Positions 19,504 to 58,397 of a stretch of DNA of 59,728 nucleotides are shown piece by piece (the first letter of the stretch is position 1; each line of letters opens with the position of its first letter). This DNA comes from Streptomyces sp. NTH33 (GTDB taxonomy: Bacteria > Actinomycetota > Actinomycetes > Streptomycetales > Streptomycetaceae): contig NZ_POTZ01000001.1 of NCBI RefSeq assembly GCF_003236365.1, positions 1-59,728 of the forward strand. Reading direction: 5' to 3'. The notes under the pieces were generated by a model, which was given only the letters and a program-made list of their open reading frames with translations, ran no database searches and was not told the DNA's origin. The position numbers were made by a program, and so were the translations under genes.

Positions 19504-19592
19504 TTGTTCACAGCGCTGTCCACCGGGTCGTGCACAGGTTTGGCGGAGTTCTCCACAACATCCGGCCGCTTGTCCACATGGCCTGTGGATAA
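19504..19592. promoter_or_regulatory. DnaA-box cluster upstream of dnaB
   Basis: Within 89 bp there is a perfect TTGTCCACA at 19570-19578 and a perfect TTATCCACA on the minus strand at 19584-19592. Near matches are TTGTTCACA at 19504-19512, CTGTCCACC at 19516-19524 and TTCTCCACA at 19549-19557. The cluster sits in the 19316-19775 intergenic region between the divergent MATE and dnaB genes, an AT-richer stretch than its surroundings. DnaA could regulate dnaB here or be titrated. Confidence 0.82.
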
Positions 19593-48558: not shown

Positions 48559-50427
48559 TCAATTTCGCCAGGGAGGTTTGATCCACAGCCAACTTGCCTT
48601 ATCCACAGGTGAATTGGCAGAACCTGTGGACAACCGGCCGCTGTTTCGGGGCGTCGTGCCGGAATCGGCGGCTCCCAGCGGAGGCTCCACCCGCGCGAGC
48701 CTGCGCAGCGCCCGCGGAGCGAAACGCGACATCGCGTGGAAGAGACGCGCCTCCGGCGTCACCGGCACCACCGCGTCGTCGCGCACGACCGCGCGCAGGA
48801 TCGCGTCGGCCACCTTCTCCGGCGGGTAGCCGCGCAGCCCGTACAGGCGGGCCGTGCGCTGCCGCAGGCGCTTCTCCTCCGCCGCGTCGACGCCCGCGAA
48901 GTGCGCCGCCGACGTGATGCCGGTGTCGACGAAGCCGGGACAGACCGCCGTGACGCCGATCCCCCGCCCGGCCAGCTCCGCGCGCAGGCACTCGCTCAGC
49001 ATCAGCACCGCCGCCTTGGAGGTGCTGTAGGCGGGCAGAGCCCTCGAGGGCTGGTACGCCGCCGCAGACGCGGTGTTGACGATGTGGCCGCCCTGCCCGC
49101 GCTCGGCCATCCGCCTCCCGAAGAGCCGGCAACCGTGGATCACCCCCCACAGGTTGACGTCGAGGACCTCCCTCCAGTCCTCGGGGGTGTGGTCGAAGAA
49201 CGAACCGGACAGGCCGATGCCGGCGTTGTTCACCAGCACGTCCACCACGCCGTACTCGGCGGCGACCTTCTCGTCCAGCTCCTCCATGGCCCGCTCGTCA
49301 CGGACGTCCACCGGCTCGGCCCAGGCGGCCGGCGCGCCGAGCAGCCGGGACCGCTCGGCGGTGCGGACCGCGGACTCGGCGTCCCGGTCGACGGCCACGA
49401 CGCGCGCGCCCGCCTCGGCGAAGGCGAACGCAGTGGCCCGTCCGATGCCGCTGCCCGCGCCCGTGACCAGCACGAGCTGCCCGGCGAAGCGGTCGGCGTA
49501 CCTGCCGACGGCGGCGGGCCGCGGCCGTCCGTCCTCGGTGGCCGTCACGAAGTCCGTGATCCAGGCCGCCAGCTGGTCGGGCCGGGTGCGCGGGACCCAG
49601 TGCCCGGCGGGGAGCGTACGGCGCACCAGGTCCGGGGCCCACCGCTCCAGGCCGTCGTACAGGCACTCCGACAGGAAGGCGTCCTCCAGGGGCGTGATGA
49701 GCTGCACCGGCACGCGCGCGTAGGCGTCCGGTCGCGGCCTGCGCAGCCGGGCGCGGACGTTGTCCCGGTACAACCAGGCGCCGTGCGCCGCGTCCCGGGG
49801 CAGCGACGAGGTCGGGTAGCCGTCGGCGGGCAGCTTCTCGACACGTCCGAGAATCCTGGGCCAGCGCCTGCCGAGCGAACCGCGCCAGGCCAGTTCGGGC
49901 AGCTTCGGCGTGTGCAGCAGGTACACGTACCAGGACTTGGCGCCCTGGCCGAGGAGCTGGCCCACCCGGCGCGGGGTGGGGCGCTTGACGCGCGTGCCGA
50001 TCCAGTGGCCGAAGTGGTCCAGGGACGGCCCGGACACGGACGTGAAGGAGGCGATCCGGCCCTCGGTGCGCCGGACGGTGACGAACTCCCAGGACTGCAC
50101 CGAGCCCCAGTCGTGCCCCACGAGATGCACCGGCCTGCCGGGACTGACCGCGTCCGCGACCGCCAGGAAGTCGTCCGTGAGCTTCTCCAGCGTGAAGCCG
50201 CCGCGCAGCGGCAGGGGCGCGGTGGAGCGGCCGTGGCCCCTCACGTCGTACAGCACGACGTGGAACCGGCCGGCCAGACGCCGGGCCACCTGGGACCAGA
50301 CCTCCTTGCTGTCCGGATAGCCGTGCACCAGGACGACCGTCGGCTGTTGTGGGTCCCCCAGTTCGGCCACGCACAGCTCGACCCCGCCCGTGCGGACCCG
50401 GCGCTCCCGCGCGCCCTTCAGCGGCAT
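48559..50427 (-). CDS. Alpha/beta-hydrolase fused to short-chain dehydrogenase (EphD-like)
   Basis: This protein of about 622 residues joins an epoxide-hydrolase-like alpha/beta hydrolase (VLVHGYPDSKEVW, nucleophile region VHLVGHDWGSVQSWE with D106, late His in GHWVPRTRPDQ) to an SDR (LVTGAGSGIGRATAFAF near 325, VLVNNAGIG, and the catalytic YSTSK near 475). The architecture matches EphD of mycobacteria. Hydrolysis and redox steps may act on one lipid or epoxide substrate, which is not known. ATG 50427 (MPLKGAR) is preferred. The C-terminal tail (about 25 residues after DSGTTPRN) is encoded by a DnaA-box cluster and has no family conservation that I recognise. Confidence 0.87.
   Translation of the reverse strand: MPLKGARERRVRTGGVELCVAELGDPQQPTVVLVHGYPDSKEVWSQVARRLAGRFHVVLYDVRGHGRSTAPLPLRGGFTLEKLTDDFLAVADAVSPGRPVHLVGHDWGSVQSWEFVTVRRTEGRIASFTSVSGPSLDHFGHWIGTRVKRPTPRRVGQLLGQGAKSWYVYLLHTPKLPELAWRGSLGRRWPRILGRVEKLPADGYPTSSLPRDAAHGAWLYRDNVRARLRRPRPDAYARVPVQLITPLEDAFLSECLYDGLERWAPDLVRRTLPAGHWVPRTRPDQLAAWITDFVTATEDGRPRPAAVGRYADRFAGQLVLVTGAGSGIGRATAFAFAEAGARVVAVDRDAESAVRTAERSRLLGAPAAWAEPVDVRDERAMEELDEKVAAEYGVVDVLVNNAGIGLSGSFFDHTPEDWREVLDVNLWGVIHGCRLFGRRMAERGQGGHIVNTASAAAYQPSRALPAYSTSKAAVLMLSECLRAELAGRGIGVTAVCPGFVDTGITSAAHFAGVDAAEEKRLRQRTARLYGLRGYPPEKVADAILRAVVRDDAVVPVTPEARLFHAMSRFAPRALRRLARVEPPLGAADSGTTPRNSGRLSTGSANSPVDKASWLWIKPPWRN
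48579..48633. promoter_or_regulatory. DnaA-box cluster inside the 3' end of the hydrolase-SDR gene
   Basis: Two perfect boxes lie in inverted orientation: TTATCCACA at 48599-48607 (plus) and TTGTCCACA read on the minus strand at 48625-48633. A near match, TGATCCACA, is at 48579-48587. All fall within the last 25 codons of the hydrolase-SDR reading frame and just upstream of kptA. Confidence 0.8.
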
Positions 50428-55657: not shown

Positions 55658-56931
55658 TTGGCCACCGGTTCCAGAACCTCCCGGCCGCCGAGGTGGGGAC
55701 GCAGCACCTCGGGCACCCGTACGGAGCCGTCGGCCTGCTGGTGGTTCTCAAGGATCGCGACGATCGTGCGCGGGACGGCGCACAGCGTGCCGTTGAGCGT
55801 GGCCAGCGGACGGACCTTCTTGTCCTCGCGCACCCGGATCTGCAGGCGGCGGGACTGGAACTCGGTGCAGTCCGAGGTCGAGGTCAGCTCGCGGTACCTG
55901 CCCTGGGTCGGGATCCACGCCTCGCAGTCGAACTTGCGCGAGGCGGAGGCGCCCAGGTCGGCCGAGGCCACGTCGATGACCCGGAACGGCAGCTCCAGCG
56001 AGGTCAGCCACTGCTTCTCCCACTCCAGCAGCCGCCGGTGCTCCTCCTGCGACTCCTCCGGGGCGACATAGGAGAACATCTCCACCTTGTCGAACTGGTG
56101 CACGCGGAAGATGCCGCGGGTGTCCTTGCCGTGCGAGCCGGCCTCACGGCGGAAGCACGGCGAGAAGCCGGCGTACCGCAGCGGCAGGCGCTCGGCGTCG
56201 ATGATCTCGTCCATGTGGTACGCCGCCAGCGGCACCTCGGACGTGCCGACCAGGTACAGGTCGTCCTTGTCGAGGTGGTACACGTCCTGGGAGGCCTGGC
56301 CGAGGAAGCCGGTTCCGGCCATCGACTGCGGGCGGACCAGCGCCGGGGTCAGCATCGGCGTGAAGCCGGCCGCGGTGGCCTGGGCCATCGCCGCGTTCAC
56401 CAGGGCCAGCTCCAGCAGGGCACCGACACCGGTGAGGAAGTAGAAGCGCGAACCGGAGACCTTCGCGCCGCGCTCCACGTCGATCGCGCCGAGCGACTGC
56501 CCGAGCTCCAGGTGGTCCTTGGGCGTGAAGCCCTCGGCGTCGAAGTCGCGGATCGTGCCGTGCGTCTCCAGCGTGACGAAGTCCTCCTCGCCGCCGACGG
56601 GCACGTCGGGGTGCACGAGGTTGCCGAGCTGGAGCAGCAGCTCCTGGGTCTCCGCGTCCGCCGCGTCGCGTTCGGCGTCGGCCGCCTTGACGTCGGCGGC
56701 GAGCCGACTCGCCTTCTTCAGCAGCTCGGCCTTCTCCTCGCCGGAGGCCTTGGGGATGAGCTTGCCCAGCGCCTTCTGCTCGGCGCGCAGCTCGTCGAAG
56801 CGGACGCCGGACGACCTGCGCCGCTCGTCGGCAGACAGGAGGGAGTCGACGAGCGCGACGTCCTCTCCACGGGCGCGCTGGGAGGCGCGCACACGGTCGG
56901 GGTCCTCACGGAGCAGGCGAAGGTCAATCAC
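55654..56931 (-). CDS. serS: Seryl-tRNA synthetase
   Basis: This 425-residue class II synthetase charges tRNA-Ser. The N-terminal coiled-coil arm covers about residues 30-105 ([43 protein letters not shown]). Class II motif 2 is in the region [28 protein letters not shown] and motif 3 in [21 protein letters not shown] 56931 ([10 protein letters not shown]) is the conserved start; no clear Shine-Dalgarno is present. The upstream 530 bp form a DnaA-box-rich region. The gene overlaps the following HAD phosphatase by 4 bp. Confidence 0.96.
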
Positions 56932-57113
56932 GCGGTCAAGGCTACCGGTGCGGCGTTCCGCCTCACGACCCAGTATTCCGAACCGTACATTGCGTACCGT
57001 TATGGGGGAATTGCCCCCTGTGTCGATGAGGGCCGCCCGCTCCCCGGGGCGGGGCGGGTGGCAGACGTACGGCTGACTGAATTTCTTCGCATGGACCGGC
57101 ATGCGGGGTCGCG

Positions 57114-57434
57114 TTGTCCACAGCGGTCTACGGTGATCCACATGTTCCGGAAAGTTATCCACAGGCTGTGCGAAAGATCTGTGGAAGACGGAATTGATCA
57201 CTCCGGAAGCCGTGGCCGGAAGGAAGAATTCCGGCTTGAGTCGGCCCGGCGCCCACTTTCGGGTGGAAAGGGGTCGCCCCAAAAGATGAACCAAAGGAGG
57301 TGAGTGGACGAAGAGCGACTTGTCCGCCCTGATCCCTCCAGGGGGCCGCAAGGGGATTTGTCGATCGAATCGCCCATGGATATCGACTTGTCCCCTGGTC
57401 GAGAAGAAGACCTGTGGACAACTTCTGTGGATAA
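57114..57434. promoter_or_regulatory. DnaA-box cluster between serS and pheA
   Basis: Four perfect boxes occur: TTGTCCACA at 57114-57122 and TTATCCACA at 57155-57163 on the plus strand, then TTGTCCACA (57413-57421) and TTATCCACA (57426-57434) read on the minus strand. A near match, TGATCCACA, is at 57134-57142. They occupy the 56932-57464 intergenic region, which also holds the serS promoter. Between the box groups, AAAGGAGGTGA at 57293-57303 precedes a possible 54-codon frame starting at GTG 57304. Confidence 0.88.
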
Positions 57435-57464: not shown

Positions 57465-58397
57465 CTAGAAACGACCGTCCTGGCAGTGCGCCACCCAGTC
57501 CGCCGCCGCCACGAACTCCCCGTCCGAGGTCCCGGTCAGTGGAGGCCGTACGTCCGTCACGCCGATGTCCGCCCGCGGGTACGAGCCGAGGAAGCGCACC
57601 TGCAGACAGATCCGCTTCAGCCCCATCAGGGCCTCGGCCATCCGGCGATCGTTGATGTGACCCTCGGCGTCGACGCAGAAGCAGTAGTTGCCGATGCCGG
57701 CGCCCGTCGGGCGGGACTGCAGCAGCATCAGGTTGATGCCGCGGGTGCTGAACTCGCCCAGCAGGTCGCGCAGTCCGCCGGGATGGTCGTCGCGCTGCCA
57801 CAGCACCACGGAGGTCTTGTCCGCGCCGCTCGGGGCGGCGGGCCGGGCGGGTCGGCCGACCAGTACGAACCGCGTCTGCGCGTTCTCGGCGTCGTGGATT
57901 CCCGTCTCCAGGGGCACGAGCCCGTAGCGCTCGGCCGCGAACTCACCGGCGAAGGCGGCGTCGTAGCGGCCCTCCTGGACCAGGCGGGCACCGTCCGCGT
58001 TCGAGGCGGCCGACTCCCAGACGGCGTCCGGGAGATACGCCTTCATCCAGTTGCGCACCTGCGGCTGGGCGGCCGGGTGGGCGGTGACCGTCTTGACGTC
58101 GGACAGCTTGGTACCGGGCCTGACCAGCAGCGCGAAGGTGATCGACAGCAGCACCTCGCGGTAGATCATCAGCGGCTCGCCCGCGACCAGCTCGTCGAGG
58201 GTGGCGGTGATGCCGCCCTCGACGGAGTTCTCGATCGGCACGAACGCGGCCTCGGCCTCGCCGGCGCGGACCGCGTCCAACGCGGACTGAACGGACACGT
58301 ACGGGATCAGCTCCCGGGTGGCCGTCTCGGGAAGGGTGCGCAGGGCGACTTCGGTGAAGGTGCCCTCGGGGCCGAGATACGCGTAGCTCGCTGGCAT
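57465..58397 (-). CDS. pheA: Prephenate dehydratase
   Basis: This 310-residue enzyme converts prephenate to phenylpyruvate in phenylalanine synthesis. The catalytic domain (about 1-185) opens [18 protein letters not shown] and contains [19 protein letters not shown], then the TRF motif [11 protein letters not shown]. The regulatory ACT domain (about 205-285) reads [28 protein letters not shown], where QSRP stands in place of the common ESRP. This suggests ordinary feedback inhibition by Phe, although the variant residue could tune it. It may work with the aminotransferase at 38577. Confidence 0.95.

Follow-up and report, generated by a model that had tools for sequence, protein, structure and literature searches.

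The gap between pheA and serS in Streptomyces sp. NTH33 carries an ordered array of DnaA boxes that recurs at this position across the Streptomycetaceae, lies near but outside oriC, and keeps its two ends in helical register. It is probably a conserved, origin-proximal, D78-type DnaA-binding control element of fixed geometry, likely looped, that restrains the initiation of replication. The array fills the 533 bp between the two genes in the window (the whole 59,728-nucleotide stretch of DNA that was analysed), and four strict boxes (TTRTCCACA) plus one box with a single mismatch occur at 57114–57434. The initial annotation had reported exactly this content for these 321 bp, with the left and right pairs in opposite orientations; both the content and the orientations were recovered (left pair on the + strand, right pair on the − strand). 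Its description of the four boxes as perfect holds in that all four are strict, but in a narrower sense the word applies to only two of them, because the perfect box of E. coli is TTATCCACA, whereas TTGTCCACA is the S. coelicolor high-affinity box, the latter as given in a passage of one review (PMC4285127). Four more weak boxes, kept in relatives, were absent from its list. An alignment of 81 pheA–serS gaps was used to read the box columns, which are given here with the flanking features.

57465–58397, − strand: pheA (prephenate dehydratase), passing the NCBIfam cut-off
57426–57434, − strand: b1, strong box, TTATCCACA; strict in 77 of 81 loci
57413–57421, − strand: b2, strong box, TTGTCCACA here and TTATCCACA in the consensus; strict in 77 of 81 loci
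57388–57396, + strand: w3, weak box, TTGTCCCCT here and TTGTCCCCA in the consensus; one mismatch in 78 of 81 loci, two in the other three
57358–57366, + strand: w4, weak box, consensus TTGTCGACT; ≤2 mismatches in 73 of 81 loci
57303–57311, − strand: w5, weak box, TCGTCCACT, consensus TCGTCCACC; ≤2 mismatches in 69 of 81 loci
57251–57284: conserved block (mean pairwise identity 0.74) carrying inverted repeats of the GGGGCGACCCC and CCAC..GTGG types
57180–57188, − strand: w6, weak box, TCTTCCACA, consensus AAGTCCACA; ≤2 mismatches in 79 of 81 loci
57155–57163, + strand: b7, strong box, TTATCCACA; strict in 81 of 81 loci
57134–57142, + strand: w8, near match, TGATCCACA; ≤2 mismatches in 50 of 81 loci
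57114–57122, + strand: b9, strong box, TTGTCCACA; strict in 54 of 81 loci, one mismatch in 23
56939–57034, − strand: serS promoter region, with a TTGAC −35-like site in relatives and TAGCCT near the start
56931, − strand: GTG start of serS, which passes the NCBIfam cut-off (query started 3 bp upstream of the GTG)

Nine box columns (≤2 mismatches), four strong (b1, b2, b7, b9) and five weak (w3, w4, w5, w6, w8), are kept in anywhere from 50 to all 81 gaps, with the strong boxes at both ends of the array and facing inwards. The spacing of b1 and b2 is 13 bp in 79 of 81 aligned loci, while b7, the inverted partner of b2, lies 258 bp from it in NTH33; b7 and b9 are 41 bp apart in NTH33 and one relative (L002) and 29–32 bp apart in the other 125 of 127. 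The blocks at boxes have mean pairwise identities of 0.81 to 0.94, the exception being w8 (in a stretch of 0.57), and the remaining stretches between them have 0.31 to 0.74. The conserved block holding w3 (57380–57405) has an identity of 0.94, and w4 is further degenerated in NTH33. At both ends a strong and a weak box face each other (b2–w3 and w6–b7), in each case 25 bp apart. Such pairs could point to a DARS-like element that reactivates ADP-DnaA and promotes initiation; the likeness is between face-to-face box pairs in the array and the head-to-head DnaA interaction that a passage of one review names as a DARS feature (PMC5742627). We regard this as very unlikely, as the S. coelicolor clusters, in the review passages cited below, repress untimely initiation, the opposite sign, if the array is such a cluster. 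The inverted repeats and rigid spacing might also suggest a structured RNA, a leader or a small gene in the gap, an exceedingly improbable reading. The RNA element was rejected on an Rfam search of the array with no match up to E 1 and on the want of covariation support from RNAalifold (two-sided change in 1 of 35 predicted pairs, covariation term −0.14), and a reading frame is disfavoured by the frequent differences of 1 bp in length.

A chance cluster can be dismissed. The draft genome of the source strain (1200 contigs, 7.86 Mb) holds 46 strict boxes, compared to 20 matches for the reversed control pattern, and from this genome-wide count ~5e-8 groups of four strict boxes in 321 bp are expected by chance. 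Across the whole window there are 15 matches to TTGTCCACA with at most one mismatch (6.2 expected), a number reached by 0 of 100 shuffled windows, and the core consensus of the array holds 11 boxes (≤2 mismatches) compared to a mean of 1.05 over 2000 base shuffles. The GC content is 57.7% in the array versus 69.8% in the window.

The first relatives compared were the best 80 of 583 pheA relatives, and in all of these best 80 loci serS sits directly behind pheA and the gap holds four (n = 46), three (n = 33), or two (n = 1) strict boxes. With the NTH33 window and 96 further Streptomycetaceae gaps, the set came to 177 gaps with serS next to pheA (176 distinct sequences, among which species may recur). 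All 177 contain at least two strict boxes, though 80 of the 96 (L103–L182) were chosen for a BLAST match to the array and lean towards positives; the other 16 derive from 20 loci (L183–L202) sampled among 106 genomes with no BLAST match. A convergent strict pair 230–350 bp apart occurs in 174 of the 177, and the three in-family gaps that have no such pair (L191, L193, L198) hold strict boxes in another arrangement. BLAST with the array consensus matched 191 of 297 genomes of the family and 12 of 17 genera. A missing match does not mean a missing array, because serS was adjacent in 16 of the 20 sampled BLAST-negative genomes and all 16 of these gaps hold at least two strict boxes. Outside the family, serS was adjacent to pheA in four of 10 pheA loci (and not adjacent within the locus in six), and strict boxes were found in 0 of these 4 adjacent gaps. 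Of the other four of the 20 BLAST-negative genomes, G005 and G006 have a polysaccharide-deacetylase gene that parts the array from serS, with the array still behind pheA; the pheA–serS interval of G007 is free of strict boxes, and in G004 the two genes sit on different contigs.

Where the position of the array could be related to dnaA, the distance had a median of 84 kb (quartiles, 80 and 88 kb; range, 78–134 kb; 31 of 33 genomes, leaving out G015, which had no BLAST match, and G259). For these distances the contig ends of G153 were taken as joined, and G284 shares its dnaA coordinates with the record of L067. The array does not adjoin dnaA in any of the 31 genomes, which rules out that it is oriC itself, and the initial annotation's placement of the cluster outside oriC yet proximal to the origin, at serS–pheA, is borne out across the in-family adjacent gaps. 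Streptomyces oriC, like the array, has many DnaA boxes. Beside the 3′ end of dnaA no strict box was found in the stretches read from L216 and L217 (~0.7 kb each, partial) or L220 (to 6 kb), and the densest 400 bp of these held 7, 8, and 10 one-mismatch boxes, respectively; the array, unlike these stretches (partial for L216 and L217), has strong boxes, at its ends. The larger number of strict boxes in the array than beside dnaA is only suggestive of tighter DnaA binding than at oriC, as judged from the box sequences. The window also contains 11 matches (≤2 mismatches) to the parS consensus, versus 0.05 expected, and this density fits an origin-proximal region. Six of the matches are perfect.

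4806, 4850, 17962, 25438, 42453, and 47907: perfect parS sites, each read as a + strand match (the motif is palindromic)

Other groups of DnaA boxes were seen in the window and beyond it.

19504–19592: second box group, with TTGTTCACA, TTCTCCACA, TTGTCCACA, and TTATCCACA
48579–48633: three DnaA boxes, two of them strict, inverted, and 26 bp apart

The first of these lies between dnaB, which encodes the replicative helicase, and a MatE-family gene, a position at which DnaA control of dnaB is conceivable; a similar group is also present in a relative (L218). The second falls within the 3′-terminal part of a long hydrolase/dehydrogenase open reading frame adjoining a KptA-family gene; an S. canus record has a similar strict pair, 25 bp apart, about 10 kb from the array. 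A strict pair with the 13-bp spacing occurs in 17 of 394 genomes of the class outside the genus of the window (L086–L102, other actinobacterial families), where neither pheA nor serS is matched in the surrounding 2.5 kb or so. In one of these (L092) the pair may overlap the 5′ end of a long open reading frame.

The stretch between the two ends of the array varies in length mostly in steps of whole helical turns. The b2–b7 distance is mostly 260, 270, 280, 290, or about 302 bp, and the 174 gaps (without L191, L193, and L198, and including five rows anchored on b1 and shifted by 13 bp) fall into classes of 256–261 bp (n = 107), 267–271 bp (n = 35), 278–283 bp (n = 16), 289–291 bp (n = 7), and 301–303 bp (n = 3), with six strays (285, 287, 293, 294, 308, and 333 bp). 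A comb of 10.4 bp (within 2 bp) captures 157 of the 174 distances and 55 of the 67 longer ones. On a tree of pheA plus serS (one FastTree, simple parsimony assignment) the turn class of the spacer changes 33 times, and the 35 spacer indel steps of ≥5 bp give a mean cosine of 0.62 at a period of 10.5 bp (0.64 at 10 bp, 0.45 at 11 bp, 0.09 at 9 bp, and 0.05 at 12 bp). As a control, 97 steps of ≤60 bp in three other gaps of the best-80 loci gave a cosine of −0.02 (single gaps, −0.18 to 0.13), and 0 of 20000 permutations, which took the 86 control steps of ≤40 bp, reached the difference between spacer and control. The spacer cosine ranged from 0.53 to 0.62 under other rootings and row choices, being 0.61–0.62 when the five b1-anchored rows were removed and 0.53–0.54 when the 13-bp shift was not applied. 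In the two genera with a gene between the array and serS, which lie outside the set of 174, the strict pair is 229 and 219 bp apart, or 31 and 41 bp below 260 bp. The phasing indicates that it matters how one array end is rotated against the other.

Passive titration, in which DnaA would be soaked up by the number and affinity of the boxes and geometry would be irrelevant, is possible but rather doubtful as the whole account. The dense strong boxes near oriC are what such a site would have, and titration is the explanation of D78 given in the initial annotation. The spacer of a sponge could, however, vary freely, and here it changes mostly by whole helical turns, with the weak boxes kept in place; titration alone explains the data less well because a sponge needs no such order.

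Weaker signals also occur beside the b2–b7 stretch. The pheA–b2 distance, intended as a control, gave a weaker 11-bp signal (cosine, 0.27 and, in a second computation, 0.31 with p 7e-5 to 1.2e-4; 0.13–0.15 at 10.5 bp) and the b7–serS distance a cosine of 0.44 at 11 bp; some of the phasing may therefore be a property of the gap as a whole, serS promoter included. The length of the whole pheA–serS gap was not phased (42 steps, cosine 0.10 at 10.5 bp). The serS promoter may share the same face-of-helix arrangement, or the gap may have a general tendency. In 70 of 81 loci a TTGAC −35-like site is found at 96–99 bp from b9; in three others it is one or two turns more distant (108 bp in two, 118 bp in one), and eight, NTH33 among them, do not have it; TAGCCT, 7 bp before the serS GTG (56929–56944), is kept in relatives, and the start of serS looks leaderless (distances to serS were counted from a point 3 bp upstream of its GTG, an offset common to all of them). 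An operator for serS, at which upstream-bound DnaA would regulate seryl-tRNA synthetase and tie translation capacity to the replication state, would draw on the array ending 182 bp upstream of serS, on the spacing of the −35-like site, and on the b7–serS phasing near 11 bp. We nonetheless consider it unlikely, as no strong box overlaps the promoter-like sites and serS may have its own, leaderless start; as a sole role it is further weakened by the gene order of G005 and G006, where the deacetylase gene intervenes and the array stays behind pheA.

The preferred reading, an initiation-restraining element of fixed geometry, can be set out as a sequence of steps. From the boxes we infer that DnaA would bind the strong end boxes b1–b2 and b7–b9, which face each other, and it would spread from these ends over the weaker boxes between. 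As the ends hold their helical phase over a span of about 260 bp, the complexes on them would probably come into contact, either by looping or along one continuous wrapped filament. Such a complex would hold or inactivate DnaA, with the result that fewer new rounds of initiation would begin at oriC about 80 kb away, and the element, being copied early, would double its capacity soon after initiation. In a stronger form, the array would be an assembled machine, a looped DnaA complex found family-wide that actively inactivates DnaA and serves as a counterpart of datA with a layout of its own; this we put forward tentatively, as a serious possibility that falls short of an expectation. The same tentative standing applies to reading the face-to-face strong/weak pairs as modules kept in helical register throughout the history of the Streptomycetaceae, with spacers changing by whole turns. 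To our knowledge, the limits on initiation in Streptomyces, with many chromosomes per hypha, are not well understood. A single element fixed in place and in helical phase across the family offers a defined target, and the alignment of the array provides, for actinobacteria, a comparative set of DnaA boxes both strong and weak.

H24, H69, and D78 are cosmid names, and the study of Smulczyk-Krawczyszyn in 2006 reportedly described S. coelicolor clusters under them, with D78 binding strongest and its deletion raising initiation. D78 is also said to bind DnaA tighter than oriC, and its deletion to raise the origin-to-end ratio. The serS–pheA position presumably fits D78, and synteny makes it likely that the array is D78; by sequence, the array is a cluster of high-affinity-type DnaA boxes outside but near oriC, as a D78-type element would be. 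A reading of the name as 78 kb from oriC was dropped, the distances running from 78 to 134 kb. A literature search found no SCH69 or SCH24 and found SCD78 only in unrelated work, and the matches for D78 with Streptomyces coelicolor concerned, by title, other subjects. A cluster of three strict boxes (spacings of 43–54 and 143–160 bp) was located in three further records, and we take it to be, perhaps, H69, by gene order.

L213, 2689–2902: three-strict-box cluster, adjoining a rhomboid-domain gene
L214, 2641–2842: three-strict-box cluster
L215, 2593–2798: three-strict-box cluster

In two complete genomes this cluster lies 28–29 kb from dnaA, on the opposite side to the array.

Passages of two reviews (PMC4585315, PMC5742627) bear out the initial annotation in reporting DnaA-box clusters of S. 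coelicolor, placed near oriC or called analogous to datA, that repress untimely initiation, and both credit Smulczyk-Krawczyszyn 2006. The restraint of initiation proposed for the array is drawn from these reports of repressing clusters. Like the array, the S. coelicolor clusters have strong DnaA boxes close to but outside oriC; the array belongs to another strain, and its likeness to D78 is judged by gene position. Clusters of B. subtilis that repress initiation are named beside those of S. coelicolor in the same passages (PMC4585315, PMC5742627), and their likeness to the array, as initiation-repressing DnaA-box clusters, is by description only. The phasing of the array resembles the loop arrangement of E. 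coli datA, where, in a passage of one review (PMC5742627), IHF-induced looping would join two box-bound DnaA, a likeness by description. In the role proposed here the array would also resemble datA, a non-coding DnaA-box cluster that restrains initiation.
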